DNA of 64,000 bases from Nitrospira defluvii (GCA_011525625.1 WYAX01000013.1:1-64000); one strand, 5' to 3'. Shown: positions 28,009 through 63,469, counted from the first letter of the stretch. Numbers and translations are program-made. The notes: generated by a model from the sequence alone, not told the origin.

Positions 28009-28394
28009 GCTGATCGCATCTCGTACGAGGTGAGGAGGGGGGAGCCTGAGAGGGCTCCCCCCTTTTGTTATGGGACGGGGATTGTGTATGATCAGCAACG
28101 TGCCCTGTATGAAATCGGTGTGCGCCCCACTCACGCACACCTCGCTGTGTTGGAATGGGCTATACGATCGGACTCCGATGCGTGCCGGCGTAGTGCGAAG
28201 GAGCAGTGTGCTTCTTGAGAAGGGGATGGCTACGGCAGATTTGACGTGTCAGATACCGAAAAGCTCCGGAATGTCCTCGCGATTACGCGTAATTCGCATG
28301 ACGGACCGAAATCTCTTGGCGTGCTGCTCGGTGTGCGTCCACTGTTGGAACGGGAGTTTCCATGGCAGCGCGTGAACCGGAGGCAAGGAAGCTC
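28009..28394. other. intergenic region after the multicopper oxidase
   Basis: 386 bp holding the terminator at 28037-28068 and the leader of the next gene. No further gene or clear promoter was recognised. Confidence 0.45.
28037..28068 (+). terminator. intrinsic terminator of the multicopper oxidase gene
   Basis: GGGGGGAGCC (28037-28046) pairs perfectly with GGCTCCCCCC (28053-28062), loop of 6, followed by TTTTGTT. Confidence 0.92.
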
Positions 28395-31614: not shown

Positions 31615-32412
31615 ATGAAGAAGGGTGCGATGAAAGTAGTGTTCGGCGTTGCGGCCGCAGCATTTTTGGCTGCGCCCCTCACCTCATTTGCCGGAGGCAC
31701 GATCGCCGGGAAAGTGACCTATCCCGGGAAGGCCGAGCAGAAGGAGTTCTCCTTCTCAAAGTTTCCGAACCCGAAGTTTTGCCCGAAGAACCCGAACAAG
31801 AGCCTTATGGATGGCGATAAGCGCTTCCTCAAGACCATTGAGGTGGCTAAGGATGGTGGGTTGAAGGGTGCAGTTGTGGCCGTGGTCGATGTCGAAGATC
31901 AGGCGTTTGTGGACGGATTCAAGGGCACGGATGTGGTGGCGGAGTTCTGTGAGTTCTTGCCGTTTACTGGCGTGGTGGTGAACACCAAGCCGTTCCGCGC
32001 CGTCAACAACGATGCCGATCCTGACGATCCCAAGTCCACCCAGGGTGTGTTGCACAACCCGCACAGCTTCACGGTGAAGGGTTCCACCTCGGCCACCGGT
32101 TTCAACATCGGGTTGGCCAAGAAGGGTGACAAGCTGGAGAAGCCGGTCACGTTCCGTGGCGGCGCCGAAAAGGCTGGGTACTATCGTTTGCAGTGCGACC
32201 AGCACGAGTTCATGCAGTCCTTCTTCCTGCCGGTGTGGAATGCGCACCACGTCGTCGTGAAGGATGATGGCTCGTTCGAGATCACGGGCGTGCCTGCCGG
32301 CAAGCACAAGGTGGTCGTGTGGCATCCGTTCGTCGGCAAGGGTAAGCTCAACGAGTTTGAGATTGAAGTGGCCGAGGGTGGAACGGCTAACTTGAAGGCT
32401 GAAATTAAGTAG
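31615..32412 (+). CDS. exported blue-copper-like protein (paralogue)
   Basis: A 265-residue protein with a signal peptide (VFGVAAAAFLAAPLTSFAGG). A cupredoxin-like core contains VLHNPHSF and then YRLQCDQHEFMQSF, the same C-x2-H-x2-M spacing as the gene at 28395. The last 70 residues (GSFEITGVPAGKHKVVVWHP) form the same carboxypeptidase-regulatory-like domain. AAGGAGG lies 7 bases before the ATG. It has its own strong terminator, so it may be expressed separately and at high level. Confidence 0.75.
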   Translation: MKKGAMKVVFGVAAAAFLAAPLTSFAGGTIAGKVTYPGKAEQKEFSFSKFPNPKFCPKNPNKSLMDGDKRFLKTIEVAKDGGLKGAVVAVVDVEDQAFVDGFKGTDVVAEFCEFLPFTGVVVNTKPFRAVNNDADPDDPKSTQGVLHNPHSFTVKGSTSATGFNIGLAKKGDKLEKPVTFRGGAEKAGYYRLQCDQHEFMQSFFLPVWNAHHVVVKDDGSFEITGVPAGKHKVVVWHPFVGKGKLNEFEIEVAEGGTANLKAEIK

Positions 32413-33694: not shown

Positions 33695-34411
33695 ATGTTT
33701 GAATTTCTGCGACAGCCCGGATTCTTCGGGACCCATGCCACGATGGGGGCAGATCTCAGCCAGTTGATGGCCACGTTGTTCACCGGCCTCTTCATCGTCG
33801 GCTGGATTCAGGCGAAGCAGCATCGAGGACACCCTCATCATTGGTTGATGTTGGGCGGCATGATCACGATGGTGGGATTCTTCACCGCCTACTATCTGTT
33901 TCGACAATTAGGGGTCCTGGCATTTGAGGGCAAGGAAGGGTTCGGTGGGTCGCAAGCCTTGTACGACTACGTCTTTATCCCTGTGCTCACCATTCATATC
34001 ATTCTGGTGATCATTGGACTGGTCATGGCCGTCTATATGATTGTGTTGGGTTTTCGTTCTCAACAGTTCATCGGCGGAACCCGAATCCTCAGTGCCTCGC
34101 AGTTGCAAACCTCGTGGAAGAAAGTCGGCCTGATCTTTGCGGCACTCCTGACTCTGGTCATCGTCCTCTTCGGGACGCGGGTGATGTCGGCTGGGTTTTC
34201 CATGCGCAAGCTGGAGGTCTACATCGGGTTTCTCGTCCTCGTGGCTACCGTCTTCGCCGTTGAAATGGGTATTCAGCGCATCTGGCCGGACGGCGGGCAG
34301 CGACATCGTGCACTGGGCCGCTTTACCATGATTGTCTACTGTATTTTGTTTCTGACGGGCACCTTTACCTACGCCATGTTGTATATCTTGTATCCCGGAA
34401 AAATCGGGTAG
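33695..34411 (+). CDS. DUF420 membrane protein
   Basis: A 238-residue protein with six to seven transmembrane helices and histidines at the membrane face (QHRGHPHHWLMLGGM, TIHIILVIIGLVMAVYMIV, RHRALGRFTMIVYCI). The pattern matches DUF420 (YozB/CtaM-like) proteins, which are tied to cytochrome oxidase assembly in Gram-positive bacteria. Two conserved histidines could bind heme or metal. It lies 8 bp after the methyltransferase gene, at the front of the bd-like oxidase locus. Confidence 0.8.
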   Translation: MFEFLRQPGFFGTHATMGADLSQLMATLFTGLFIVGWIQAKQHRGHPHHWLMLGGMITMVGFFTAYYLFRQLGVLAFEGKEGFGGSQALYDYVFIPVLTIHIILVIIGLVMAVYMIVLGFRSQQFIGGTRILSASQLQTSWKKVGLIFAALLTLVIVLFGTRVMSAGFSMRKLEVYIGFLVLVATVFAVEMGIQRIWPDGGQRHRALGRFTMIVYCILFLTGTFTYAMLYILYPGKIG

Positions 34412-34451
34412 GGATATCGATACGGGCCATGCACGGAGCGAGTCACGGTTT

Positions 34452-34952
34452 ATGCTTGTATGCGGCTGCGGCGGCTGGATGCATACCGAAGGAGTTGAGG
34501 AGCGACTGGCAGAAGACGGACAACCGGCCTGGTTTGTCCGGACGGAATGTCGCCCCTGTCGCTGGCTGGTCGGCATCGAGGGCTCGGCGGGACAGGTCGA
34601 CGGGCTCGTGGATCGGCTCATGTGGTCTGATGATGCCAAGCATCGATTGGATCGAACCCCACCTTATGCTGTGCCGTTCTTCCGTGAGTTGGTGGAGGGG
34701 TTCGCCAAATCCAGGCAGCAGCGGGTGATCACCTATGATCTGATCGATCAGGCGCAAACCGGCGATGTCGTCGCCTGGGATCCAGAAGCGGAACAAAGGC
34801 TCGCCAATGTGCCGCCACCCGTTCGAGCTATGGCACGGGTTGAACTTGAACGGACGGCCGTCGATCGAGGGGCGCGTGTCGTGACGGTGGCGTTGATGGA
34901 AGAAGTGAAGGCGCGGTATTTCGGGATGGCGGCCAGAAACAATGAGATGTGA
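34452..34952 (+). CDS. protochlorophyllide-reductase-like C-terminal domain protein
   Basis: A 166-residue soluble protein. The N-terminus has cysteines (MLVCGCGGWM, TECRPCRWL) that could form a metal site. The C-terminal 60 residues (VAWDPEAEQRLANVPPPVRA, then MARVELERTAVDRGARVVTV) match the PCP_red domain known from light-independent protochlorophyllide reductase subunit B. The rest of that enzyme is absent, so this is not a chlorophyll gene. Similar orphan PCP_red proteins occur beside respiratory and Fe-S genes. The start is uncertain, as only a weak ribosome site precedes ATG 34452. Confidence 0.7.
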   Translation: MLVCGCGGWMHTEGVEERLAEDGQPAWFVRTECRPCRWLVGIEGSAGQVDGLVDRLMWSDDAKHRLDRTPPYAVPFFRELVEGFAKSRQQRVITYDLIDQAQTGDVVAWDPEAEQRLANVPPPVRAMARVELERTAVDRGARVVTVALMEEVKARYFGMAARNNEM

Positions 34953-35015
34953 GGAGCGCAGGAAGTAGTGAGGGGCGGAATGGGCCTTTCCTCGGTTCAC
35001 CTTGCCGTCTAAATC

Positions 35016-36101
35016 ATGCTGCATCGATTGGCATTACGGGTACTTCCAAGTTTGACGCTTGCCGTCACGGAAGATTCGGTTCGTAGACGTAAACGTCTCG
35101 TGATGTTCTTCCCCGGGTTGGTAGCGTTTGCGGTCTATCGGGCCGCAAAGCAAGGGTTTTCTCTTGCCGATCCGCTGACGCTGCTGGTGCTGTGCGGGCT
35201 GGTTTCCATGGCAACGGCCTTGTGTGCCTATCGCGTCGGGCGGGCCGTGCCATTTAGGGAATTAGTCGCGGGGGATGGAGTGCGTCGGATTGGCTGGATT
35301 GTCGTCTGGATTGGATTTGTCTACGGTGTTCAGCTGTCATTGCTGGTTCTCGCGTTGTTATGGTTGGTGGGATACGACTATCTCAAACATCCCGATGGGC
35401 CGGCCATGATGGCCCTCATCATTCCCAGTTCGGCCGTGGCTCGCGACGCATTCGAGATCGGGTACGTTCGGTGGCTTGAAGCGAATGGGCGGCCATTCGT
35501 GACGTTCCCGGACGGTGCGGCGCTGTGGGGGTTGCTGCAGCGGGCCGACCAATCGCTTGCTACCTGGGTGATAGCTGGCACGGTGGCGTGCGCCGGCTTG
35601 TCGGTCCTGACGGCGACGCTCATTGATGGGGAGTTGGCGGTACTCGGTCAAGCCGGTGTCGTCGCGCTGGCGGCAGGGACGGTCGGGCTCCTGGCGTTCT
35701 TTGCCGGTCAAGCAGAGCGGGGGGCGTGGAGGCCCAGGTTGGCCGTCACGCAATGGAGGGAACTCGTCAAATTCTGGTGGTGGCCAGGATTGGCCTTTGC
35801 CGCGACTTACTATCTGGTGTTGGTCGGAGTGGGGTTGTACGTCTTACGGCAGCCGATACTTTCCTCGGGCTTCTATGCCTGTGTGGCCGCGCTCGTCGGC
35901 GGCATGATGGCGTTGTATTGTTATTATCTCGGCGATCGGCGAGAGATTGAGAGTCGTCAACCGGGAGGCGTACCCAGTGCATTGCTGCGGTGCCCGTTTG
36001 TCATGGGCATCTTGGGCAAGTCTCGTGAATCCATTGCGGGTGCGGCTCTCCATGAATCTGCAACCGTTTTTGAGAAGAATAGCCAGAGAGTGTCGTCATG
36101 A
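35016..36101 (+). CDS. polytopic membrane protein coupled to bd-like oxidase 1
   Basis: A 361-residue protein with about eight transmembrane helices (for example IGWIVVWIGFVYGVQLSLLV, FYACVAALVGGMMALYCYYL) and no family I recognise. The first 30 residues are basic. Its last codons overlap the bd-like oxidase start (ATGA), so both are translated together and are probably a subunit and its partner. It does not show the CydB pattern clearly, yet its position is that of the second oxidase subunit. Confidence 0.65.
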   Translation: MLHRLALRVLPSLTLAVTEDSVRRRKRLVMFFPGLVAFAVYRAAKQGFSLADPLTLLVLCGLVSMATALCAYRVGRAVPFRELVAGDGVRRIGWIVVWIGFVYGVQLSLLVLALLWLVGYDYLKHPDGPAMMALIIPSSAVARDAFEIGYVRWLEANGRPFVTFPDGAALWGLLQRADQSLATWVIAGTVACAGLSVLTATLIDGELAVLGQAGVVALAAGTVGLLAFFAGQAERGAWRPRLAVTQWRELVKFWWWPGLAFAATYYLVLVGVGLYVLRQPILSSGFYACVAALVGGMMALYCYYLGDRREIESRQPGGVPSALLRCPFVMGILGKSRESIAGAALHESATVFEKNSQRVSS

Positions 36102-37966
36102 CGAAACATGTATCGGTTCCGTTCGTGATCGTGCTGCTGCTATGCGGATTCCTGTCGAGCTTCGGTGCGCTGTTGGTGAGCCCGCCGCTGCTGATGGCTG
36201 CGGACCCTTCCGCCGATGTGTATTTCCACACCCCCGGTGTGCCCAGTGGGCCTTCGGCGCCGACGGCAAACGACAATCACTACCCGCAGGTCGGTTCCCT
36301 CGACAGCCGGTTGCTGATGTGGTTCATCATTCAACAGCATACGTATTTTGGCGGGTTTGTTCTGGCGTTGCCCATCTTTTGTGTGTTGCTGGAACTGCTG
36401 GGGCTGGTCGCAAAGAATCCTGCGATGGCCTTGCGCTATGATGGACTGGCCCAGGATCTGCTGAAGGTCGCGTTGCTGGCCTTGTCCGTCACCGCCGTCG
36501 TCGGCAGTGTCATGCTGACGATGTTCATCGCGCTCTATCCCAGTTTTATGCAGTACATGGGGGGCACCTTCAAGGGCATGATGCCGCTGTATGCGCTGGT
36601 GTTTGTGGGAACCACCGCGTTGACGATTGTGTATTACTACAGTTGGGATCGCATGGCGGAGCCCGGCTTGAAGTGGGTGCATCTGTCGATTGGCGTGATT
36701 GCGGTGGTGTTCGGTACTTCCTTGTTATTACTGGCAAATGCGTGGTCGGCGTTCATGATGGCCCCGTCCGGTGTTGACGGGCAAGGCCGGTATTTGGGGA
36801 ACCCCTGGCATCTGTTGCGTTCGGCACTGTGGAGTCCGTTGAACCTCCACCGGTTTCTGGCGGATATCATGTCCGGCGGTGCCGTCGTCTTGGCCTACGC
36901 CTGTTATCGATTCTTCTCCGGGAAAAGTCAGGAAGAGCGTGCGTATTATGATTGGGTTGGATACGTGTTCCTGTTTGTGACGGTCTGTGCGCTGCTGCCC
37001 ATGCCGTTTGCCGGCTATTGGTTGATGCGATCTGTGTATGCCTACAGTCAGAGCATGGGTGTTACGATGATGGGCGGCCTGCTGACCTGGTTGTTCGTCG
37101 TGCAGGCATTGCTGATCGGCGCCCTGTTTCTGGGGGTCAATTATTATCTCTGGCAGAGCATGGGGCGGATTCGTGGTGGCGAACGGTATCGATCCTACTA
37201 TCAGTATCTGCTGCTGGCGCTGACCGGATGTTTGTTCATCTGGTTGACCCCCCACACCTTGTTGATGACCGGGACTGAAGTCAAGGCCATGGGCGGGGCC
37301 CAGCACCCGGTGATCGGCAATTACGGCGTGATGTCCTCGAAGAACGGGGCGGTCAACGTCATGATCTGCATTACGGCCTTGAGCTATATCTATTATCGTC
37401 GCGCGAATCGGACGATGACCATCTCTTGGGCTCGGGCGGGAAATCTCGCGCTGGCCGCGCTCTTCGGTCTCGGGGTAGCCCACATCATCGGGCTGTCGGT
37501 CTACGGTTTCTACTTGCCGGCGAGTCTTCGGGTAGCGCTGTCAGGGCCGCAGGCCGTGACGACGCTTCTGGTGGTCACGCTGGGGTTGTTGCTCAATCGT
37601 CGCATGTTACGTGGCGCGACGATGCATGGCCCGGTGCAATGGGGGCATATTTCGGTTCGCGGAATGGTGGGGCTGTTTGGGCTCGCTGCAGCGTTTACGT
37701 GGGTGATGGGGTTGATGGGGTACATCCGTTCATCGGGGCGGTTGGCCTGGCACGTCAACGAGTTGATGCCGGACACGTCGCCCTGGGCATTTACGCCGAC
37801 GCTTGGGTTTGCCGCGAAGATGGTGACCATTAATATGGTGCTCTTCTGGGGAGCGGTCTTTTTCTTGTTCTGGGTGTGCCAACGAGGACAGCAACCGGTG
37901 ATGCATGAGGACCTGAGCGCGGAGAAAGAGGCGGGATTTTTGCCCTCTCCTTCGCATGAAGGATAG
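36098..37966 (+). CDS. cytochrome bd-like oxidase subunit 1 (copy 1)
   Basis: A 622-residue membrane protein with an N-terminal signal-like helix and about 13 further helices. Shared with the copy at 41485 are QQH81 in FIIQQHTYFGGFVLALPIF, WVHLS, SPLNLHR, FAGYWLMR-VYAY, TPHTLLM, KAMGGAQHPVIGNYGVMS and WHVNE. The histidines are candidate heme ligands as in CydA. Proteins of this divergent type were proposed as the terminal oxidase of nitrite-oxidising Nitrospira, which often lack ordinary heme-copper oxidases. A short extracytoplasmic domain (residues 30-70) follows the signal helix. Confidence 0.82.
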   Translation: MTKHVSVPFVIVLLLCGFLSSFGALLVSPPLLMAADPSADVYFHTPGVPSGPSAPTANDNHYPQVGSLDSRLLMWFIIQQHTYFGGFVLALPIFCVLLELLGLVAKNPAMALRYDGLAQDLLKVALLALSVTAVVGSVMLTMFIALYPSFMQYMGGTFKGMMPLYALVFVGTTALTIVYYYSWDRMAEPGLKWVHLSIGVIAVVFGTSLLLLANAWSAFMMAPSGVDGQGRYLGNPWHLLRSALWSPLNLHRFLADIMSGGAVVLAYACYRFFSGKSQEERAYYDWVGYVFLFVTVCALLPMPFAGYWLMRSVYAYSQSMGVTMMGGLLTWLFVVQALLIGALFLGVNYYLWQSMGRIRGGERYRSYYQYLLLALTGCLFIWLTPHTLLMTGTEVKAMGGAQHPVIGNYGVMSSKNGAVNVMICITALSYIYYRRANRTMTISWARAGNLALAALFGLGVAHIIGLSVYGFYLPASLRVALSGPQAVTTLLVVTLGLLLNRRMLRGATMHGPVQWGHISVRGMVGLFGLAAAFTWVMGLMGYIRSSGRLAWHVNELMPDTSPWAFTPTLGFAAKMVTINMVLFWGAVFFLFWVCQRGQQPVMHEDLSAEKEAGFLPSPSHEG

Positions 37967-37988
37967 GCAAGTGATGAGGAGTATAGGG

Positions 37989-38651
37989 ATGGAAATGCGG
38001 GTATTGGTCGGTGCGATAGGGTTGTTGGGGTTGATGGGATGGTCGTCGCTTCTGGGGCAGGGTGATGTGGCTTTTGCGGCTGATCCTGGAGTCCTGGTAT
38101 TAGAAGATTTTCAATCCGCTGACCAAGGCGGATTTCCGATTGATTGGCAGCATGAGAATCAACGCAGCCAGGCGAAAGGTAGGGACGCGTACAAGATTCA
38201 ATCGGAGGATGGCCAGAGATTTCTGGCGGCGAAGGATGCTGGACAGCGTATCAAGAAGCGCAAAATTGATTGGGATCCAAAGGCGTACCCGGTCCTGACC
38301 TGGCGGTGGCGTCTCCATAAGGCCCCAAGTGGTTCTGAGCCTGTCGCGGCCGTATATGCTTCGTTGGATACGGATCTCATGTTCATTCCTGTATTTACCA
38401 AATATATCTGGAGCGCTGGAAAACCTGAGGGAACGTTCGTCGAGGGTGGCATGTTCAGTGGTTCGGAGTTGGTCGTCCAGAGCGGGGTGTTGCCGGTCGG
38501 AGAGTGGGTCGAAGAGCGGGTGAATGTCTACGAAGACTTCAAGCGAATTCACAAGCACGAGCCGCAGGAAAAAGCCTGGGGGATCTCCCTGTTTGCCGGG
38601 CCCGGAGTAGAAATCGATTTTGGCCCGGTGACGGTGGGCCCGGCTAAGTAA
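37989..38651 (+). CDS. exported DUF3047 protein
   Basis: A 220-residue protein with a signal peptide (LVGAIGLLGLMGWSSLLGQ). The mature part matches DUF3047: FQSADQGGFPIDWQHE, WDPKAYPVLTWRWRL, and the C-terminal ISLFAGPGVEIDFGPVTVG. The family is beta-rich and extracytoplasmic with unknown function, and often lies beside redox enzymes. Start 37989 has AGGAG 7 bases upstream; ATGs at 37974 and an overlapping 37956 are alternatives. It follows oxidase copy 1 by about 20 bp. Confidence 0.8.
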   Translation: MEMRVLVGAIGLLGLMGWSSLLGQGDVAFAADPGVLVLEDFQSADQGGFPIDWQHENQRSQAKGRDAYKIQSEDGQRFLAAKDAGQRIKKRKIDWDPKAYPVLTWRWRLHKAPSGSEPVAAVYASLDTDLMFIPVFTKYIWSAGKPEGTFVEGGMFSGSELVVQSGVLPVGEWVEERVNVYEDFKRIHKHEPQEKAWGISLFAGPGVEIDFGPVTVGPAK

Positions 38652-38689
38652 ATTGCTCATGGGCTCGGGTTTATGAGGATTGGGTAGCG

Positions 38690-39085
38690 GTGATAAGTCG
38701 ACCCTCAACCAGTATGTTATTTGATCTGGCCTTCGGCATCATGGTCATGGGCACAGTCGGGGCGCTGATCGGTACTTTTCTCGGTTCGGCATCCATTCCA
38801 GTAACCTCCGGAGTTGGTGTGTTGCTTGGCGCCGTGGTCGGCTTTCTGGGCGGCCGCCGATTTCTGTCCAGTATTTTGGTCGGCACGGTCTTGGGCGGCC
38901 TGCTCGCGTGGATGATCGCCGGGCTGGAAAAGGTCTCATTCGGGGCAGGCGCCGGGGCAGCCATGGGGGGCTTTCTCGGCGTGCAGATTTCGATGTTGTT
39001 GGATGTCCGGGCGGCGAGACGAGCCGCGACGGCGAGGGAAGGTGAGGACGCAGGCGCGGCTCACTCGGCGGTGACCAAATCATGA
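38690..39085 (+). CDS. glycine-rich small membrane protein
   Basis: A 131-residue protein with four glycine- and alanine-rich transmembrane segments (LAFGIMVMGTVGALIGTFLG, GVGVLLGAVVGFLGG, ILVGTVLGGLLAWMIAG, GAGAGAAMGGFLGVQI). It ends in a basic, soluble tail. The glycine-zipper pattern is seen in oligomerising inner-membrane proteins, but no family is recognised. Start is GTG at 38690; ATG 38714 is possible. It lies inside the respiratory locus. Confidence 0.6.
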   Translation: MISRPSTSMLFDLAFGIMVMGTVGALIGTFLGSASIPVTSGVGVLLGAVVGFLGGRRFLSSILVGTVLGGLLAWMIAGLEKVSFGAGAGAAMGGFLGVQISMLLDVRAARRAATAREGEDAGAAHSAVTKS

Positions 39086-39100
39086 GGCGTGAGTAAGGCG

Positions 39101-40015
39101 ATGGAAAATCGGGGTGTGCTCATCGGGTCGATTATCTTTGTGTTTGGGTCGTTCATTCTGATGATTGGAGGATTGGTCTACGAGTCCTACAAGGCTAAGC
39201 AAATGCGTCAATTGGCGCTCTCTATTGCGTCAGAAGCCAAACCCGTTGCCGCACCTGTCGCACAGGATTTTTCGATGTACAAGACCCTTGTCGGGGATGA
39301 TGGTCGGGAAATGGTGCAAATCTCCGAAGGCCCGTTCGTCATGGGGAGCCGCGATAATGACAGTGACCCGGATGAAAAGCCTGAGCATCAAGTCTATTTG
39401 AAGACCTACTTCCTTGATAAGCATGAAGTGACACAGGATGCGTACGATCGGTTTCTGAAGATGACTAGGCGGGTGAAGCGAAAAATAGAGGTCTTTGAAG
39501 ACGATCCAACCAAATTGCTGAAATCAGAATACCCTGCCATCGCAGTGACGTGGGATGATGCGGAGGCCTATTGCAAATGGGCCGGAAAGCGTTTGCCGAC
39601 TGAGGCAGAGTGGGAAAAGGCTGCTCGCGGGGAAGGAAAGCGCCGCTATGCTTGGGGTGATGAGTTTATCTCCGGGTATGCAAACATCGATGGCACAGAA
39701 GATGGGTTTCGCTACCTCGCCCCCCCCGGCTCTTTTGAGTCGGGGCGCAGCCCGTATGGAATTTACGACATGACGGGAAATGTCGGTGAATGGGTAGCGG
39801 ATGTCTATGATGAAAACTTTTATCGAGCCTCGCCCTACCGAGATCCGAAAGGGCCCGACCAGGGGGAACAACGAATCATTCGCGGTGGTTCCTGGAGAGA
39901 AACAAAACGAAATGTGCGCTCCTCGAAACGATTCCAGGCGAAACCCTGGCGACATGACATCACAATTGGATTTCGTTGTGCGAAAGATGTCGATGTCGAC
40001 ACGGTGGGGAAGTAG
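39101..40015 (+). CDS. membrane-anchored SUMF1/FGE-like protein 1
   Basis: A 304-residue protein with an N-terminal anchor helix (VLIGSIIFVFGSFILMIGGL) and a formylglycine-generating-enzyme-like domain from about residue 65: FVMGSRDNDSDPDEKPEHQV, VTWDDAEAYCKWAGKRLPTE, AEWEKAARGEG, GNVGEWVADVY, IIRGGSW, ITIGFRCAKD. The two copper-binding cysteines of aerobic FGE near the C-terminus are absent (the loop reads RGGSWRETKRNVRSSKR), so sulfatase activation is unlikely. The fold may bind a ligand or protein partner. Confidence 0.85.
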   Translation: MENRGVLIGSIIFVFGSFILMIGGLVYESYKAKQMRQLALSIASEAKPVAAPVAQDFSMYKTLVGDDGREMVQISEGPFVMGSRDNDSDPDEKPEHQVYLKTYFLDKHEVTQDAYDRFLKMTRRVKRKIEVFEDDPTKLLKSEYPAIAVTWDDAEAYCKWAGKRLPTEAEWEKAARGEGKRRYAWGDEFISGYANIDGTEDGFRYLAPPGSFESGRSPYGIYDMTGNVGEWVADVYDENFYRASPYRDPKGPDQGEQRIIRGGSWRETKRNVRSSKRFQAKPWRHDITIGFRCAKDVDVDTVGK

Positions 40016-40026
40016 TCGATCACGGC

Positions 40027-40935
40027 ATGCTGGAAACGCGCTTTAAAGTGGTTTTCCTCCTCGCGGTGCTCTTTGCCGCGAGCCTACCTATAATCGCCAT
40101 TTTTCGCGGGACGATCTCCACTCCATTTGAGGCGGCATCAACGCATTCTGAAGAGGAAGTGTCTGGCACCGCTTCAGAGGCGTCTCCCGAGGAGCCCTTG
40201 CCGGAAGAATTGGTCGTCATCCCTGCGGGGCCCTTCATCCGAGGGACGAATCAGGGCGGGTTTGATGAGCAGCCTGAGCGACAGATCTATCTTGATGAGT
40301 TCCTCATCGATCGCTATGAAGTGACCAATGCGCAATATGCGGCCTTCGTGAAGGCGACAGGCCATCGAAAATCTGGACCTCCCTCGCGGTATGCCAAGAA
40401 TCCTGGGCGTATGCGCGGCGTGAACCAGCCTGCGGTGTATGTTTCCTGGGAGGATGCTAAAGCCTACTGCGCATGGCGAGGGCGGCGCTTGCCGACCGAG
40501 GCAGAGTGGGAAAAGGCCATGCGTGGTACTGACGGTCGTCTGTGGCCGTGGGGCAACGTCGAAATGCCTGGTGGTGCAAATTGGGCTCGTATCAACGATG
40601 GGTTTGATGTGGCGGCTCCGGTGGGGCGAGTGCGAAGCGATGCCAGTCCTTATGGGGTGATGGATGGGGCTGGGAACGTGATGGAGTGGGTGGAGGATTG
40701 GTATCTCGAAGGTGCCTATGCCGCCGCTTCTGATCGGAACCCTGAAAGTCCTGAATTTGGAACGTACAAAGTATTGAGGGGAGCGGGATACACGAGTTCA
40801 GGATCAGACTTGCGTATCACCGCTCGCAGCAAAATGATGGCGGACTTTCGTGACGAAACGATTGGGTTCCGTTGTGCTCAATCCAGCGTGGAGAAGGGCC
40901 GTACGTCTGAGGGTGGGAAGGGTGGAAAATCATAG
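40027..40935 (+). CDS. membrane-anchored SUMF1/FGE-like protein 2
   Basis: A 302-residue paralogue of the preceding gene. It has an N-terminal anchor (VVFLLAVLFAASLPIIAIF), then the FGE-like domain with VVIPAGPFIRGTNQGGFDEQ, YVSWEDAKAYCAWRGRRLP, GNVMEWVEDWYLEG and ETIGFRCAQ. Again the catalytic cysteine pair is missing (GAGYTSSGSDLRITARSK). Start 40027 follows the previous stop by 11 bp; the longer frame from 39976 lies inside it. Its last codons overlap the tail of the small leftward ORF at 40930. Confidence 0.85.
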   Translation: MLETRFKVVFLLAVLFAASLPIIAIFRGTISTPFEAASTHSEEEVSGTASEASPEEPLPEELVVIPAGPFIRGTNQGGFDEQPERQIYLDEFLIDRYEVTNAQYAAFVKATGHRKSGPPSRYAKNPGRMRGVNQPAVYVSWEDAKAYCAWRGRRLPTEAEWEKAMRGTDGRLWPWGNVEMPGGANWARINDGFDVAAPVGRVRSDASPYGVMDGAGNVMEWVEDWYLEGAYAAASDRNPESPEFGTYKVLRGAGYTSSGSDLRITARSKMMADFRDETIGFRCAQSSVEKGRTSEGGKGGKS

Positions 40936-41034
40936 AAAATCAAAGTAGTAGAGGATCAGAAACACGGCCAGAATGATATTGACAACCATTCCAGCCAAAA
41001 CTATAATGTCGAACACTTTTGAGTTTTTTGCCAT
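40930..41034 (-). CDS. single-helix membrane microprotein (leftward)
   Basis: A 34-residue ORF with one strongly hydrophobic helix (IIVLAGMVVNIILAVFLILY) and a basic N-terminus MAKNSK, so the N-terminus should be cytoplasmic. AAAGGGA lies 5-6 bases before the ATG at 41034. It runs against the respiratory genes and its stop overlaps the end of the second FGE-like gene by 6 bp. Small helices of this kind often accompany oxidases (CydX, CcoQ), but no homology is claimed. Confidence 0.55.
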   Translation of the reverse strand: MAKNSKVFDIIVLAGMVVNIILAVFLILYYFDFL

Positions 41035-41135
41035 AGAAATCCCTTTAAAAATCAGATGGGTGAGGGATTTTGATTAACACAGCATAGTTGGTGTGTCAAT
41101 TAAAAATACGTACTTAAACCGTTGGGGGAATCAAG

Positions 41136-41252
41136 ATGGAAGCTGCTCAGGACGACATCTCAATTAAGATCGGAAAAATGATTTTCTACATCACCCTGGC
41201 AGTGAGCCTCTGGTTTTTTTACTGGTTCGGTGGGATTCAGTGCCCGTGCTGA
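41136..41252 (+). CDS. single-helix membrane microprotein upstream of bd-like oxidase 2 (a)
   Basis: A 38-residue ORF with an acidic N-terminus (MEAAQDDIS) and one transmembrane helix (MIFYITLAVSLWFFYWFGG), ending in CPC. GGGGGA lies about 6 bases before the ATG. Codon pattern and hydrophobic profile look genuine. Its position directly upstream of oxidase copy 2 suggests an oxidase-associated subunit. The C-terminal cysteine pair could bind a metal. Confidence 0.6.
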   Translation: MEAAQDDISIKIGKMIFYITLAVSLWFFYWFGGIQCPC

Positions 41253-41301
41253 TCCTGATCCTGGCCTTGGGAAACGTTTACTAAGTTGAAGGGGGTTTGA
41301 G

Positions 41302-41424
41302 ATGGGCCAAACAATTGTGTATTTCGTCGTCTCGATCTTGATCTGCGTCTCGTTTTTTGCGGCTGTTGATCACTTTTTGATGGATGCGCAAGGGTTGGAC
41401 TTTTGGTATCTCCTTCGAAAGTAA
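41302..41424 (+). CDS. single-helix membrane microprotein upstream of bd-like oxidase 2 (b)
   Basis: A 40-residue ORF with one N-terminal transmembrane helix (IVYFVVSILICVSFFAAVD) and a short tail FLMDAQGLDFWYLLRK. AAGGGGG lies 6 bases before the ATG at 41302. It lies 49 bp after the previous microprotein and 60 bp before oxidase copy 2 in the same orientation. It resembles the single-helix proteins of respiratory complexes in size and topology only. Confidence 0.6.
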   Translation: MGQTIVYFVVSILICVSFFAAVDHFLMDAQGLDFWYLLRK

Positions 41425-41484
41425 TTGGGGAGATAGGGTTTTGATTATGTTGTTCACATACGAGATGTATCAAGGAGGTAACCC

Positions 41485-43404
41485 ATGGGCTCTGTAACCC
41501 GCACGAAGTTGATGTCGATCATGGCGCTGTGCGCAATGATCGGCCTCCTCCTCATGCCCATCCTGGTTGCGATCCCTGCCCTTGCTGGTGACGGTGGCGC
41601 ACCGGCCGCTGATGCCAAAAAAGAGGGCGGTGAAGCAAAAATCGAGAAGGGCAAGGATGTTTATTACAAAACGGAAGGTATTGTCTCTGGGCCTCCGGCC
41701 CCAAAGACGACGGACGGTGAGAAGGACTACCCGCGATACAATTTTGAAAGTCGCGTCTTGTTGTGGTTCGCAAACCAGCAGCATCTCTATTACGGTAGCT
41801 TCGTGTTGGCCGTGCCCATCTTCTGTATGGTCATCGAATTCATGGGCGTCGTGACGAAAGATAAGGCTATGGCCAAGCGGTATGATCAGCTGGCCTATGA
41901 CTTTATTAAGATCAGCTTGACGGCCTATTCGTTGACCGCCATCCTTGGTGGGATTTTGATCTTCACTTTCTTGACTCTCTATCCGGCCTTCTTTCAATAC
42001 CTCTCTGGTATCTTCAGGCCGGTCATGCACATCTATGCATTGATGTTCGTGGCTGAGAGCGGAACGCTCTACATCTACTATTACGGTTGGGACAAGATGA
42101 AGGAGGGCTTCCTGAAGTGGATTCACCTCAGCATGTCAGTGGTCCTGAACGTCATTGGTACGATTCTGATGTTCCTTGCCAATTCCTGGATCGGGTTCAT
42201 GATGTCCCCTGCTGGCGTAGATGAGCAAGGGCGCTATCTTGGCAACATTTGGCATGTGATCCACACCGCTTTGTGGAATCCTCTCAATCTGCATCGCATT
42301 CTCGGTAACATGGCCTTCGGAGGCGGTGTTGTCGCGGCTTATGCAGCTTATCGGTTCTTGTCCGCCAAGACCGACGAAGAACGTGCTCATTACGACTGGA
42401 TGGGCTATATCGCTATGGCGCTGGGCGTAGCGTTCTTGATTCCTCTTCCATTCGCTGGATACTGGCTGATGCGTGAGGTATATGCGTATCGGCAACAGAT
42501 GGGTATCACGTTGATGGGTGGCTTGCTTGCGTGGCTGTTCATCATTCAGGCGACCATGATCGGTATCCTGTTTCTGAGTACTAACTATTATCTCTGGCAG
42601 GCATTGGGGCGGATGCGTGGCGCCGAAAAGTATCAGCGCTACATTAAGTACCTCGTCTTCTTGCTGACTTGCGGCTATCTTGTATTCATTACCCCGCATA
42701 CCATCGTCATGACTCCGGCCGAATTGAAGGCGATGGGCGGGCAGCAGCACCCCGTGCTTGGTAACTACGGTGTTATGTCGGCCAAGAATGGCGGCATTAA
42801 CGTAATCATTACCACCACCGTCTTGAGCTTCGTGTGGTACATGCGGGGCAACAAGGTTTCGACGGTCTCGTGGGCCAAATTTGGTAACATTTTCATGGGC
42901 TGTTTCTTTTTCTTTGCCTACCTTAACATCATCATGCTCGCCATTTATGGCTACTACATTCCTGCCAACGTCCGTGTTGGACTGTCAGTGCCGCAGGTCG
43001 CAACGACTCTGTCTTGCCTATTCTTCATGTTCGCCCTTAATAGCGTCATGATGAAAGGTGCAAAGCAGATGGGACCTATTGAGTGGGGTAAGATCTCGGC
43101 TCGCTCGCAGTATGCGTTGATTATGCTTGCCACCGCCTTCACGTGGATGATGGGTCTGATGGGGTATATCAGATCGTCGGTGAGGCTCTTCTGGCACGTG
43201 AATGAAATCATGCGCGACAACTCGCCATGGGCTTATACCCACACGGTAGGTTTTGCGGCGAACATGATTTCTGCCAACGTGTTGTTCTTCTGGATCAGCA
43301 TCATGTTTGTGTTTTGGTTGGGTGCCCTAGCAGCGAAAAAGGCTCCCGTCGAAGCGAAGGCCGCTGTTCCTGGCCGGGCTACCGCGCCAGCAGTTGGTCA
43401 CTAA
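41485..43404 (+). CDS. cytochrome bd-like oxidase subunit 1 (copy 2)
   Basis: A 639-residue paralogue of the oxidase at 36098, colinear over its whole length: FANQQHLYYGSFVLAVPIF (H100), WIHLSMSVV, NPLNLHRILGNMAFGGGVVA, FAGYWLMREVYAY, TPHTIVMTPAELKAMGG, QQHPVLGNYGVMSAKNGG, WHVNEIM. It has an N-terminal signal-like helix, a charged periplasmic stretch (residues 35-90) and about 13 more helices. AAGGAGG precedes the ATG. Three membrane cytochromes c follow in the same operon and are the likely electron donors, so this copy may use cytochrome c rather than quinol. Confidence 0.84.
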   Translation: MGSVTRTKLMSIMALCAMIGLLLMPILVAIPALAGDGGAPAADAKKEGGEAKIEKGKDVYYKTEGIVSGPPAPKTTDGEKDYPRYNFESRVLLWFANQQHLYYGSFVLAVPIFCMVIEFMGVVTKDKAMAKRYDQLAYDFIKISLTAYSLTAILGGILIFTFLTLYPAFFQYLSGIFRPVMHIYALMFVAESGTLYIYYYGWDKMKEGFLKWIHLSMSVVLNVIGTILMFLANSWIGFMMSPAGVDEQGRYLGNIWHVIHTALWNPLNLHRILGNMAFGGGVVAAYAAYRFLSAKTDEERAHYDWMGYIAMALGVAFLIPLPFAGYWLMREVYAYRQQMGITLMGGLLAWLFIIQATMIGILFLSTNYYLWQALGRMRGAEKYQRYIKYLVFLLTCGYLVFITPHTIVMTPAELKAMGGQQHPVLGNYGVMSAKNGGINVIITTTVLSFVWYMRGNKVSTVSWAKFGNIFMGCFFFFAYLNIIMLAIYGYYIPANVRVGLSVPQVATTLSCLFFMFALNSVMMKGAKQMGPIEWGKISARSQYALIMLATAFTWMMGLMGYIRSSVRLFWHVNEIMRDNSPWAYTHTVGFAANMISANVLFFWISIMFVFWLGALAAKKAPVEAKAAVPGRATAPAVGH

Positions 43405-43430
43405 TCAAAACGCAAACAATGAATCAATGT

Positions 43431-43483
43431 GGGAGGGTGTCTGGGATGCTCGCGCAGCCAGAGCCCTCCCCTCCTGCAGGAGG
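43431..43483 (+). promoter_or_regulatory. hairpins around the ribosome site of the diheme cytochrome gene
   Basis: GGGAGGG (43431-43437) can pair with CCCTCCC (43464-43470). Directly after, CCTCCTGCAGGAGG (43470-43483) is a perfect palindrome whose right arm is the Shine-Dalgarno GGAGG for the GTG at 43492. The site could therefore be partly hidden in the mRNA. Confidence 0.45.
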
Positions 43484-43491
43484 TTTGAGCT

Positions 43492-44811
43492 GTGATTGAA
43501 CTCATTAAATCAGCCCTGGCGATGGGATGGCCAGCATTAGGGCTTTTGATAGCCCTGATGTTTTACTTCAAGGCATCCATTTCTGATCCTGTCGCCAACA
43601 AGCGAGCAGTATTCAAGACGTTCATCGGGTTTTGGGGAGCCATGCTCCTGTTCATGGCCATTGCCAACTACAAGATGAACTTTTTCGGTGAATCGAGATT
43701 GTTGCCGGTATCTCTTGTCTTGATCACTTCCATGACGTTCATGATGGCCCTTTACTTTACGAACATCAGCGCCTTGCTGAAAATCGGAGGGTTCATGTTC
43801 TTCATCGCGGCGGCCTTGTCTGGATATGGAAATTGGCTGCCTCAAGTAGAGGGTGGTTTCCCGCCCATCGAAGAAAAGAAAGATTTTAGCAATATGCCCC
43901 AGACCGAGTTGGCCGACGAAGGTGAAAAAATCATCTTTGGTGGGGTCGGTCAAAATAAGGTTCAGGGAGCCATCGGCAAAGGTCAATGTCCGCTCTGCCA
44001 TGCTTTCCACAAAGGGATGCTTGGTGAGCGTGCGCCGAATCTCGATGGAATCCCAGAAAGAGCGGAAGCGCAGATTAATGACCCTCGGTACCACAAGGGT
44101 AATCCAGCTGCTCGTGACAGCAATCAGAAGGAAGCATTTCCAGGTTCAGGCACGGCCGAAAACGCAATTGAGTACATTGCGGAATCCCACTCATGCCCTA
44201 GCTGCTTTGTAGTGGCTGGCTTTGGGGTGAAGGGCACCAATGACAAAGAAAGTCCAATGCCGGCCATCCACAAGCCCCCAATTTCCCTGAGCCTCCCAGA
44301 ATTGGCTGCCGTTGACACGTGGCTGTATGTCCGGGAGGGACGGGAAGCTCCTGGGTTTGATGAAATTGTGAAGTCCTATGAGAAGTTCATTCCTGAGTCC
44401 GACCGCCCGAAACCACCGACGGAAGGTGACAAGGCAGCTGGGGGGGGTGGAGCAGCCTTGATGGCTGATGGAACGGAACCAGTCGATCAGATTTTTGCTA
44501 AAGGTCAGTGCGTGGCGTGTCACACGATTCCCGGAATCGCGGGTGCGACCGGTACGATTGGTCCTAAGCTGGTCGAGGGAACTAATGCTCCTCTACGGAT
44601 CAAAGATAAGGATTACAAAGGTAAGGCCAAGAGTGTTCCTGACTACATCATGGAATCGATCGTAGAGCCAAGCGCCTATGTCGTGAAGGGCTTCCCTGAC
44701 AACACCATGCCGAAGGTGTTTGGGCAAAAACTGAGCGCCGGTGCACTCAAGAAGCTTGTAGATTACCTCTCGCAGGTCCAGGAAGGGAAGGAACCTCCCA
44801 AAGCCTCCTAG
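43492..44811 (+). CDS. membrane diheme cytochrome c
   Basis: A 439-residue protein with four N-terminal helices (for example TFIGFWGAMLLFMAIANY, VSLVLITSMTFMMALYF) and a periplasmic part with two c-type heme sites: CPLCH at 166-170 and CVACH at 340-344. Between them ESHSCPSCFVV adds a CxxC pair. A glycine-rich linker separates the domains. Start is GTG at 43492 with AGGAGG upstream. It lies directly behind bd-like oxidase 2 and could pass electrons into it. Confidence 0.85.
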   Translation: MIELIKSALAMGWPALGLLIALMFYFKASISDPVANKRAVFKTFIGFWGAMLLFMAIANYKMNFFGESRLLPVSLVLITSMTFMMALYFTNISALLKIGGFMFFIAAALSGYGNWLPQVEGGFPPIEEKKDFSNMPQTELADEGEKIIFGGVGQNKVQGAIGKGQCPLCHAFHKGMLGERAPNLDGIPERAEAQINDPRYHKGNPAARDSNQKEAFPGSGTAENAIEYIAESHSCPSCFVVAGFGVKGTNDKESPMPAIHKPPISLSLPELAAVDTWLYVREGREAPGFDEIVKSYEKFIPESDRPKPPTEGDKAAGGGGAALMADGTEPVDQIFAKGQCVACHTIPGIAGATGTIGPKLVEGTNAPLRIKDKDYKGKAKSVPDYIMESIVEPSAYVVKGFPDNTMPKVFGQKLSAGALKKLVDYLSQVQEGKEPPKAS

Positions 44812-44863
44812 AGTTGAAGAGTAGTAATCTGGCTGCTATTGCGGAAGAAAGGGAGATGAGGAC

Positions 44864-45901
44864 ATGAAAGCATTAATGTCAGTCGGGGCGCTGATCGGTG
44901 TCCTTGGACTGCTCATGTTGATCGGTATGATCTTCGGAGTAGTTCCATCGAACACCGTCAGGCTCGTTGAGGGCTACATGCCCATGCAGGTGCTGAGCGA
45001 GCTGGCTGTGTTCGTCGCCGGCTTTACCGGGCTGAGCTACCTGGCCAGTTCAATGGGAATGACCATTCCGCGGTTTTGGCAGGGGGTTTTGTTCTGGGCA
45101 TTTGTCCAGACCTATCTCAAGTTCCGCATTTACCCCCCGATCCCCTTCAGCGTGCGCGCCATGTATGGGGTCGTTTCCTTTGTTGCTGTATTCATGTGGG
45201 TCTCAGCCAACGAAGAAGATTGGAAGAAATTCCGGCAACCCATTCTCAACGTGTTGGACGCTAATACCGGATTCCACAAAGCCCTTCGAACGATGTACCT
45301 AATTCTCCTGCCGATCTTGATCGGAGGCTTCTCGTTCTTGACGATGAAGCCAAGTGTGGATGAACCGATCGAGTTGCGCACGGTGCATCCAGCCCCTCCA
45401 GCGAGCACGAAGGTCCACGGCAAAACCTACACCCTTCAAACCTCGCAGAATCCCTATCGTGTAAACCTCGAAGGGAAATATGATCAGGCTTACAGCAACA
45501 AGCTGATCGTCGAGCAGGGGATGGGGCGTTTAATGGCACCCAATGCGAACCCTTGGGATGAGAAGGCTGAAGGATATTTGAAGTATGTGCGGGAAGGCGG
45601 TGAGATCTTCTTCCAGAATTGTCACTTTTGCCATGGTGACAATTTGAACGGTCGTGGACTCCATGCGTTTGCCTTCAATCCGATTCCCGCGAACTTTACT
45701 GACCCAGGCACGATTGCGCAGTTACAGGAAACATTCATTTTTTGGCGCGTTGCTAAGGGAGGAATTGGTCTTCCGAATGAAGGATTCCCCTGGGCTTCTG
45801 TTATGCCGCCATGGGAACAGCACCTAACCACCGACGAAATCTGGAAGGTGATCCTGTTCGAGTATTGGCACACGGGATACTATCCTCGGACATGGGACTA
45901 A
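44864..45901 (+). CDS. membrane monoheme cytochrome c
   Basis: A 345-residue protein with about four transmembrane helices in the first half (SVGALIGVLGLLMLIGMIFG, GVVSFVAVFMWVS, MYLILLPILIGGFSFLTM) and a periplasmic class I cytochrome domain with CHFCHGDNLNGRG (C253-H257). Distal methionine candidates lie in WASVMPPWEQHLT. It starts 52 bp after the diheme cytochrome gene and is part of the same unit. Confidence 0.85.
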   Translation: MKALMSVGALIGVLGLLMLIGMIFGVVPSNTVRLVEGYMPMQVLSELAVFVAGFTGLSYLASSMGMTIPRFWQGVLFWAFVQTYLKFRIYPPIPFSVRAMYGVVSFVAVFMWVSANEEDWKKFRQPILNVLDANTGFHKALRTMYLILLPILIGGFSFLTMKPSVDEPIELRTVHPAPPASTKVHGKTYTLQTSQNPYRVNLEGKYDQAYSNKLIVEQGMGRLMAPNANPWDEKAEGYLKYVREGGEIFFQNCHFCHGDNLNGRGLHAFAFNPIPANFTDPGTIAQLQETFIFWRVAKGGIGLPNEGFPWASVMPPWEQHLTTDEIWKVILFEYWHTGYYPRTWD

Positions 45902-45947
45902 TTCTGAATCTTACAAACAACCTGGGAGAACAGGTGTGAGGTTAATA

Positions 45948-47732
45948 ATGAGAAACTTTCTTATGAGCGTAAAGGTTTCCCCGGTTATCGGGGTAGCCCT
46001 CGGTGCCCTTCTCCTCTCCGCCAGCACTGTAGGAGTTGGTCAAGCCGAAGATCTTCCCGAGGGTTTTGCCAAGGGGGAATTGGCTCCTGCCCCTCCGGCG
46101 GAAATGATCGAATCGGGCAAGCGTGTCTACTTCACTAAATGTGTTTGGTGTCACGGTGTGGACGGTGCAGGTGATGGCCCTGGTGCTGATCGGCTGTGGC
46201 CTCGCCCTAGAAACTTCAATCAGGGCACTTTCAAAATTCGTCACACGGCGAGTGGGGAACTGCCGCTGTTCAATTACAATGAAAAGACTCCGGATAGCGG
46301 GAAGAACGATTTGTTCGATACGGTGACGCATGGTCTTCCAGGTTCGGCGATGCCACCATGGGAAGGCATCTTAACTGAGGAACAGCGAATCCAGGTCCTC
46401 TCATATGTGACGACGCAGTTGGTTAAGGACAGAAAGTTCACGGATAAACAGTCTGAGACGCAGACGGTCCTTCAGCTTGCTACGATCAAGCCTGCTGAAG
46501 CTACGGAAGACAGCATCAAGAAGGGCGCTCAACTCATCGTTGACAAGAAGTGCATTGAATGTCACGGAGTAGAGGGCCGTGGTGACGGAAATGCTTTCAA
46601 TTTGAAAGACGACTGGGGCTTCTCTATCCAGCCGGCGAACTGGCATAAGTGTTGGAATTTCCGTGGGAGCCGTCAGGACCCCTACAATGTAAGGAATATT
46701 TTCCGTACATTCTCGACGGGCGTCAACGGAACCCCAATGCCCTCCTTTGCCGATAGCACCTCGATTGAGGATCGTTGGAACATCGCAAACTTTGTCAATT
46801 CGTTGTGTGAACGTGACGAGGAAGGTAAGCCGCTTGGTATCGATCCTCTAACCGACAAGCCAAAGATCAATTTCGTTGTGCCTTCTACTGCCGTCGAAGG
46901 GGAGATTTCGAACGATCCAGAGAATGAAATGTGGAAGAAGCAGCCACGGCGCTATGTTGCGATGGGCGGTCAGATCACGCACAAGCCACGCAACTTTGTG
47001 AACCGTATCGACGATATCTGGGTGAAGTCGCTCTACAACGAAAAAAGCGTCGTGTACTTGATCCAGTGGGATGATCGGACGAAGAGCATTGCAGAAGGAA
47101 AGCTTCCTTGGGCACCGACGCAGGTTAACGTCGAGAATTTCGGCGTGAAGGAACAGGCTCCAAAGACGGGGGAGGAAGGATCGATCGCAGCGGCTCAGAA
47201 TAATTATGCCGTGTATAACGATGCTATCGCATTCCAGTTTCCGATCAAGTGGCAGGAGATTCCAGCGCCATTTAAGCCACGCTATTTGTGGGGAGACGCG
47301 AAGTTTAACGCCGACATCCTTAAATGGGAGGCGGACGGTTCCTTGCGTTCATTCAAGGGAACCGGATGGGATCAGGACTTCGAAGAACGTGATGACTTCG
47401 AGGAGAAGGTCAAGTTGTTGAAGTCCGAATGGAAAAACGGTCAATGGACCGTCATGATCTCACGTCCTCTCAAAGGGGACAAGGACGATTATGACGAGTA
47501 CACGAGATTTGATATTGGTAAGTACATCCCAATGGTGTTTTTTGCTTGGGATGGCCATAACGGAGATGCGGGTCGGAAGATGGCGGTTTCAGCCTTCTAT
47601 TATACTATCCTGCAGCCGCCGATCCCTCAGGAAGTCTACATCTACCCGGCGGTTATTGCAGTTGGCGTGGTGTTCCTGGAAGGATGGATGTTGACCCGCC
47701 GTGCCAACAAGAAAAAGGGCAAGGTGTTGTAA
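45948..47732 (+). CDS. diheme cytochrome c fused to an ethylbenzene-dehydrogenase-like heme b domain
   Basis: A 594-residue exported protein. After the signal peptide come two cytochrome c domains (CVWCHGVDGAGDG, C65-H69; CIECHGVEGRGDG, C202-H206), then from about residue 300 a domain resembling the gamma subunit of ethylbenzene dehydrogenase/NxrC-type proteins (NRIDDIWVKSLYNEKSVVYL, WTVMISRPLKG), which binds heme b. A C-terminal helix (AVIAVGVVFLEGWMLT) anchors it. It could link a periplasmic molybdoenzyme to the oxidase. Start is ATG 45948 with GAGG; GTG 45936 is possible. Confidence 0.82.
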   Translation: MRNFLMSVKVSPVIGVALGALLLSASTVGVGQAEDLPEGFAKGELAPAPPAEMIESGKRVYFTKCVWCHGVDGAGDGPGADRLWPRPRNFNQGTFKIRHTASGELPLFNYNEKTPDSGKNDLFDTVTHGLPGSAMPPWEGILTEEQRIQVLSYVTTQLVKDRKFTDKQSETQTVLQLATIKPAEATEDSIKKGAQLIVDKKCIECHGVEGRGDGNAFNLKDDWGFSIQPANWHKCWNFRGSRQDPYNVRNIFRTFSTGVNGTPMPSFADSTSIEDRWNIANFVNSLCERDEEGKPLGIDPLTDKPKINFVVPSTAVEGEISNDPENEMWKKQPRRYVAMGGQITHKPRNFVNRIDDIWVKSLYNEKSVVYLIQWDDRTKSIAEGKLPWAPTQVNVENFGVKEQAPKTGEEGSIAAAQNNYAVYNDAIAFQFPIKWQEIPAPFKPRYLWGDAKFNADILKWEADGSLRSFKGTGWDQDFEERDDFEEKVKLLKSEWKNGQWTVMISRPLKGDKDDYDEYTRFDIGKYIPMVFFAWDGHNGDAGRKMAVSAFYYTILQPPIPQEVYIYPAVIAVGVVFLEGWMLTRRANKKKGKVL

Positions 47733-63367: not shown

Positions 63368-63469
63368 ATGCTTGACATCCCTCCCTCCTTTACCTATCAT
63401 ACGCCTCCTGTGCCGCAGGACTCAGATGTTGCGTGGTGTGCGAAAACTTTGCGCAACATGTTGAGGTGA
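63368..63469 (+). CDS. 33-residue small ORF before the TorD-like gene
   Basis: A short frame beginning MLDIPPSFTYHTPPVPQD and ending in CAKTLRNMLR, with AAGGAG 8 bases upstream of ATG 63368. The stop at 63469 lies 14 bp before the chaperone gene. It is proline-rich at the start and amphipathic at the end. It could be a leader peptide or a small subunit; a competing frame from 63309 also spans the area. Confidence 0.35.
   Translation: MLDIPPSFTYHTPPVPQDSDVAWCAKTLRNMLR

Follow-up and report, generated by a model that had tools for sequence, protein, structure and literature searches.

What role do two divergent cytochrome bd-like proteins play when they share a locus with a row of membrane-bound cytochromes c? 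This question is raised by positions 33,695 to 47,732 of a 64,000-nucleotide stretch of Nitrospira defluvii DNA (GCA_011525625.1 WYAX01000013.1:1-64000), which is the start of contig 1 in a 4.6 Mb genome of 35 contigs and is called here the window. An earlier note on this sequence proposed that the second bd-like protein (copy 2) is an oxidase fed by cytochrome c and that its set of partners is little described. The inventory behind that proposal is sound: both bd-like frames are present, match Pfam and share 54% identity along most of their length; five CxxCH motifs lie exactly where they had been reported, in three genes (cytA, cytB and alt-NxrC); Pfam confirms the DUF420 and FGE proteins that accompany a polytopic membrane protein; and the real microproteins of the locus are micM, mic1 and mic2 (Table 1). 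The novelty of the partner set did not survive, and the central claim is mostly prior art, because PMC6606698, PMC3578206, PMC8026999, PMC12342949 and PMC10839748 already cover the cluster, its substitutions and the OR-N family. The partners of copy 2 have been published as the Nitrospira bd-like_3/alt_NxrC_2 cluster. What is new are sub-features of this known cluster: a trio of microproteins, a distribution independent of nitrite oxidoreductase (NXR), and lineage-specific changes of haem ligands for which one family of Nitrospirales, f4, serves as contrast.

By its genes and their relatives, and judging from the match to the published Nitrospira cluster, the window would belong to the order Nitrospirales. 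The genome is very likely that of a nitrite oxidiser, because it carries two NxrA frames (86% identical to each other; the TIGR03479 match is below cut-off). The cluster bears on how nitrite oxidation in Nitrospira is tied to oxygen and to reverse electron transport, and it is among the most highly transcribed parts of these organisms (PMC6606698). We regard it as an even call that copy 2 and its partners make up a complex linked to cytochrome c and that the core of this complex is no main oxygen reductase in nitrite oxidisers.

The copy 2 module and its three microproteins

In N. moscoviensis, the partners encoded beside bd-like_3 are two c-type cytochromes and alt_NxrC_2, a diheme protein; a bd-like duplicate lies a few genes off, and the cluster is also conserved in Nitrospina and anammox bacteria (PMC6606698). 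The present locus shares these parts, and the order of its genes (bd, two cytochromes c and a diheme alt-NxrC with a C-terminal transmembrane helix) is the same. The fold of copy 2 and the N-terminal homology of both copies place them in the cytochrome bd superfamily (CydA): Foldseek matches copy 2 to 7oy2_C (2.4e-7), and all nine matches under E 0.001 are cytochrome bd subunit I.

Nine CxxCH motifs occur in six frames across the window, five of them in the three genes that follow copy 2. The earlier note had counted these genes as three membrane cytochromes c, and all three are present; the third, however, also bears an EB_dh-type haem-b domain (Pfam EB_dh, 8.7e-12; TIGR03477, 9.2e-16, under that model's cut-off), and its diheme part resembles PDB 6h5l_B (7e-41), so that it corresponds to alt_NxrC_2. 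The second domain of cytA resembles Kustd1711 (PDB 7zs0, E 2e-11), a diheme protein that anammox bacteria encode in their nxr cluster and that has a high potential of about +350 mV; high-potential c haems would fit electrons drawn from nitrite or similar donors. The AlphaFold model of cytB reached a predicted template modelling score (pTM) of 0.49. A third haem site in cytA, at CPSCF (44194), was considered and rejected: read by eye, the motif falls opposite the EPSAY segment in the second cytochrome domain, and it is probably not a haem site. The cysteine pair itself (44194-44208), in the form CPxC[FY], is found in Nitrospirales, f4 included, and in Nitrospinia, and was not seen in other cytA proteins; it is possibly a disulfide or a metal site.

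The module is stable in its composition. Among the Nitrospirales loci compared, 18 contain the complete stretch; they come from families f1, f2 and f3, and the order bd, cytA, cytB, alt-NxrC is kept in every one. Wherever the contig covers it, synteny in these families runs from a methyltransferase through the DUF420 protein, PCP_red protein, polytopic protein, copy 1, DUF3047 protein, small protein, FGE1 and FGE2, and continues with micM on the minus strand, mic1, mic2, copy 2, cytA, cytB and alt-NxrC; in one locus (L052) the mic2 match emerges only with the iterated profile. Family f4 keeps FGE2, the three microproteins, copy 2, cytA, cytB and alt-NxrC, and the copy 1 block was not seen alongside. 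Order-wide synteny and codon-level constraint on the microproteins led us to reject a chance arrangement. An outside search, which used an alignment of distant copy 2 relatives and no other gene of the module as query, yielded 80 named loci, mostly from Proteobacteria (Gallionella, Mariprofundus, Thiodiazotropha, Sedimenticola, relatives of Thiomargarita and others), plus Myxococcota and Nitrospinota. Among the named loci with room for the neighbours, cytA comes next in 74/74, cytB in 65/65 and alt-NxrC in 60/60, so that the four-gene module is complete in all 60 loci with sufficient room.

Copy 2 is preceded immediately by three microproteins whose families recur across phyla. They emerged when iterated profiles were run against the 20,712 small frames of the loci collected. 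Of 77 hidden Markov model matches to mic1, 75 are located no more than 1.5 kb upstream of a bd gene and on its strand, as are 93 of the 94 to mic2; the background rate for the same position and strand is 7.6%. The matches to micM number 83, of which 60 fall within 1.5 kb upstream (45 of these on the opposite strand) and the rest elsewhere in the loci. The locus is otherwise encoded on the plus strand with short gaps, and the 34-codon micM frame is the one exception. This frame specifies the most conserved protein of the locus, and a whole-genome search found it in 107 of 117 Nitrospirales genomes, in single copy in all but one. It is a constrained protein-coding frame, because its differences from other Nitrospirales are mostly synonymous (162 synonymous against 40 nonsynonymous) and concentrated at the third codon position (57, 7 and 157 at positions 1, 2 and 3). 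None of the three families was found in 14 loci of the NIDE0901/OR-N1 type or beside three solo copy 2-type paralogues.

Single-transmembrane microproteins encoded beside a bd gene are known as CydX, CydY and CydZ (PMC4325964). The present proteins resemble CydX-type subunits in kind and not in sequence: they lie upstream, three together and one on the opposite strand, and the CydX motif YxxWxxG was not seen in them by eye. Pfam gave no match above cut-off, DUF2474 included, and NCBIfam gave none; in the literature searched, no description of the microproteins of this locus turned up.

Haem-ligand and quinol-site residues

Ligand columns were read from an alignment to E. coli CydA and are numbered below as in copy 2. 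This alignment, which the earlier note had pointed to, gave a divided picture for both copies: the equivalents of H19 and H186 are kept (H100 and H270 in copy 2, H81 and H251 in copy 1), but columns 421 and 569 are not His. Both copies also keep three further histidines (H405, H422 and H571 of copy 2) common to nearly all relatives; an upstream OR-N1-like group is without H422 and, in a few cases, also without H405. The equivalent of CydA E107 is E191 in copy 2 and T172 in copy 1, the Glu having been lost from copy 1 in the window's genus. The quinol residues K252 and E257 of E. coli CydA are Met in both copies, Met393 of b558 is replaced by Val or Ala, and the haem ligand Glu445 by Leu. Neither copy thus has the residues of a canonical quinol-oxidising bd (qOR), in agreement with earlier descriptions of bd-like proteins that are without quinol residues and in which extra helices replace the Q-loop (PMC3578206).

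The residues that set copy 2 apart are Q421, F569 and H182. Gln421 and His182 are present in 50/50 nitrite-oxidiser-type proteins (20 Nitrospirales copy 2 and 30 Nitrospinia proteins), and Phe569 in 49/50, f4 being the exception; His569 was found in all three f4 proteins read (L054, L217 and L218). At columns 421 and 569, copy 1 has Q402 and A550 here, and across copy 1 proteins Gln and Ala, Gly, Ser or Glu. Neither copy therefore has the full His set of the NIDE0901-like proteins, which are His/His at these columns in 12/12. The named lithotroph proteins have His or Tyr at 421 and mostly His at 569 (Asp in a second paralogue), and other Nitrospinota have His at 421 and mostly His at 569. Because the NIDE0901-like and lithotroph sequences stand outside the nitrite-oxidiser type, Gln421 and Phe569 are most simply seen as derived states. 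H586 was also tried as a mark of nitrite oxidisers and rejected, being confined to Nitrospirales copy 2 and Leu in Nitrospinia. Several proteobacterial loci (L108, L111, L112, L114, L115, L117 and others) carry tandem bd modules, in which the second core has Asp at 569.

Replacement of a CuB and a high-spin haem His by Gln and Phe has been described before, a description that Q421 and F569 fit, and the same form is reported in anammox bacteria (PMC8026999). The NXR-region cluster of Nitrospina gracilis and Kuenenia (PMC3578206, PMC8026999) is alike in having a Gln/Phe bd-like oxidase, cytochromes c and an alternative NxrC; our f4 sequences differ in that Phe is not fixed within the clade. Such proteins have been placed in the OR-N family, in which OR-N1 and a NIDE0901-like OR-N2 make up the likely terminal oxidase pair (PMC12342949, PMC10839748). 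That family, as Murali, Gennis and Hemp 2021 are cited in PMC10839748 and PMC12342949, is likewise without a quinol site, with cytochrome c as the proposed donor. The Ca. Manganitrophus TO_1 complex (PMC9040806), likened here by description only, also has a bd-like core, joined there by a cytochrome b subunit in the periplasm.

What the proposed complex may do

Copy 2, cytA, cytB, alt-NxrC and the three microproteins would form one membrane complex, with a bd-like core of the CydA superfamily that has no quinol site; its five c haems and haem-b domain would face the periplasm. The full-His form, which occurs in many lineages presumed to be iron, sulfur or other lithotrophs, would probably draw electrons from periplasmic cytochromes c, and a cytochrome c link of the complex is likely. 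In the nitrite-oxidiser lineage the core has changed from His or Tyr to Gln at 421 and from His to Phe at 569 and has gained H182; so altered, it may pass nitrite-derived electrons between periplasmic cytochromes and the membrane, either in reverse electron flow or as a safety branch. The boldest form of this idea, in which a widespread seven-part lithotroph complex, with alt-NxrC as its point of electron entry and the three microproteins dedicated to it, had its core re-tooled in nitrite oxidisers from an O2 reductase into an electron gate linking cytochrome c with the membrane by losing two ligands and gaining one His, is offered only tentatively.

That copy 2 belongs with the cytochromes, as the earlier note held, is borne out by their association in 18/18 and 60/60 loci and by the Met residues at the quinol site; the oxidase part of that claim is what has become doubtful. 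O2 reduction by either copy is questionable, judging from the residues, because ligand positions have changed and because the genome also encodes a NIDE0901-like paralogue in which all these positions are His and which lies in a cytochrome locus of its own, as well as a canonical CydA and one COX1, a haem-copper oxidase; the bd-type genes comprise this CydA and four bd-like genes. The Gln/Phe form reported from anammox bacteria, which are anaerobes, points in the same direction. If copy 2 were nevertheless a cytochrome c-fed oxygen reductase, as the general OR-N proposal of cytochrome c use would have it (PMC10839748), Gln and Phe would merely tune its site. Such a role is possible, though we lean against it: gene order is the same as in full-His homologues, His569 is kept in f4 and in lithotroph relatives, and the core ligands H100, H270, H405, H422 and H571 are retained. 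Retention of these residues and of E191, which leaves room for haem binding and O2 chemistry, also weighs against a core that is no main oxygen reductase, as do several other observations. The nitrite-oxidiser-type proteins form a single clade (100/100), so that the substitutions represent at most one or a few events, maybe a single one, and their correlation with NXR rests on few independent changes. Two NXR-bearing proteobacterial genomes have cores other than Gln/Phe (Tyr/His in L151, Arg/Asn in L170), and the microproteins were not found in five Nitrospinia loci, which differ in this from the locus studied here. The Gln/Phe substitutions offer a direct test of O2 reduction by this branch, and the three microproteins could serve as handles for purification.

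On a different view, alt-NxrC would be the gamma subunit of NXR or would anchor it in the membrane, and the complex would be an NXR-specific quinone or cytochrome branch (PMC6606698, PMC3578206). This agrees with the strong transcription of the cluster in N. moscoviensis (PMC6606698) and with the tracking of NXR by F569 and copy 1 within the order, and in one genome (G057) 289 bp separate an extra copy 2-type gene (L077:8146-10254) from nxrA, which lies downstream. In this region (L077, G057:C5, 8146-16036) the bd2-type gene is followed by nxrA, a response regulator and nxrB, the last identified by reading. This arrangement indicates that a nitrite-oxidiser-type core has been placed beside nxr at least once; the module itself needs no NXR. 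An alt-NxrC homologue is present in 60/60 loci, yet of the 37 module-bearing genomes 2 gave an NxrA match at 49% identity or more and 35 gave none (these are draft genomes, and the absences are soft). Within Nitrospirales, 96 of 117 genomes gave an NxrA match, and the four from f4, which retain alt-NxrC, gave none; f4 is probably UBA2166, the NXR-lacking family named in PMC12342949. We therefore rejected alt-NxrC as an NXR-only subunit and consider the NXR-specific branch as a whole quite improbable. Because it persists in NXR-less genomes and in f4, alt-NxrC looks like a part of the bd-like complex instead, a shift that offers other organisms for study; in contrast to the published treatment, the module occurs here in many NXR-less genomes and with three microproteins.

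Copy 1 could also be the second, non-catalytic CydA-like half of a CydAA'-style heterodimer with copy 2, an arrangement compatible both with an oxidase and with the cytochrome c-linked complex that we favour. Bd-like paralogues stand in pairs not only in this locus but also in that of NIDE0901 and in many from Proteobacteria, and copy 1 has lost more ligand positions; both points speak for such a structural half, whereas copy 1 possesses upstream partners of its own and f4 has copy 2 without a neighbouring copy 1. A heterodimer seems unlikely, if well short of far-fetched.

Copy 1, its upstream block and neighbouring genes

In the tree, copy 1, Nitrospirales copy 2 and Nitrospinia proteins fall into one group (support 100/100). 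Copy 1 is most simply an old duplicate, because its nearest neighbour, with weak support (86/51; 85 in another tree), is Nitrospirales copy 2. It stands beside copy 2 in three NXR-bearing Nitrospirales families, is absent beside copy 2 in f4, and co-occurs with NXR within the order. The DUF420 gene follows the same pattern: it keeps its place near copy 1 in the NXR-bearing Nitrospirales families, and no such gene was found next to copy 2 in f4. The polytopic protein is 42-77% identical across the order; neither Pfam nor PDB sequences gave a convincing relative, even when the order-wide alignment was used, and an attempt at fold assignment provided no lead. No description of this upstream half (DUF420, polytopic, DUF3047 and FGE proteins) turned up in the literature searched.

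Table 1. Genes of the bd-like locus, numbered from the first nucleotide of the window
Feature	Description	Position	Strand	Remarks
DUF420	DUF420 membrane protein	33695..34411	+	Pfam PF04238 6.1e-18
PCP_red	PCP_red-domain protein	34452..34952	+	Pfam PF08369 3.5e-24; syntenic
Polytopic	orphan polytopic membrane protein, ~6 transmembrane (TM) helices	35016..36101	+	4-bp overlap with copy 1 start
bd1	bd-like copy 1, 622 aa	36098..37966	+	Pfam Cyt_bd_oxida_I 1.6e-16, N-terminal half only
DUF3047	DUF3047 protein	37956..38651	+	Pfam 1.3e-15
Small protein	small membrane protein, 131 aa, ~3 TM	38690..39085	+	syntenic
FGE1	FGE-domain protein 1	39089..40015	+	PF03781 6.9e-60
FGE2	FGE-domain protein 2	40027..40935	+	PF03781 7.7e-56
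micM	microprotein, 34 aa, one TM	40930..41034	-	family also in Proteobacteria and Myxococcota loci
mic1	microprotein, 38 aa, one TM	41136..41252	+	profile matches upstream of bd genes
mic2	microprotein, 40 aa, one TM, consensus D..lM..QGL	41302..41424	+	profile matches upstream of bd genes
bd2	bd-like copy 2, module core, 639 aa	41485..43404	+	Pfam Cyt_bd_oxida_I 5.4e-20, N-terminal half only
cytA	4 TM and two cytochrome c domains	43492..44811	+	CxxCH 43987, 44509; CPSCF 44194
cytB	4-5 TM and one cytochrome c domain	44864..45901	+	CxxCH 45620
alt-NxrC	diheme cytochrome c, EB_dh/DMSOR type II gamma-like domain, C-terminal TM	45936..47732	+	CxxCH 46140, 46551

A paralogous locus, L075 (G000:C32:494500-514000), encodes an OR-N1-like protein, a cytochrome c, a Rieske protein, a cytochrome b and a NIDE0901-like OR-N2 protein (L075:12743-14728), the last recognised by the neighbourhood described in PMC6606698. 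It also carries cytA-, cytB- and alt_NxrC_1-like genes, and none of the three microprotein families was found there.

Elsewhere in the window, positions 23143-28008 encode an unusually long protein of 1621 aa with multicopper oxidase domains, possibly the multicopper oxidase placed in such a cluster by PMC3578206. The frame that starts at 63433 and runs to 64000 is TorD/NarJ-like by eye; Pfam gave no match over its in-window part. Two periplasmic carboxypeptidase-regulatory-like proteins are encoded at 28362-29327 and 31615-32412. Many of the proteobacterial loci have relatives of the second, at 24-34% identity, in the vicinity of the bd module, and this second protein has a His/Cys/Met-rich stretch that by eye resembles a cupredoxin site.

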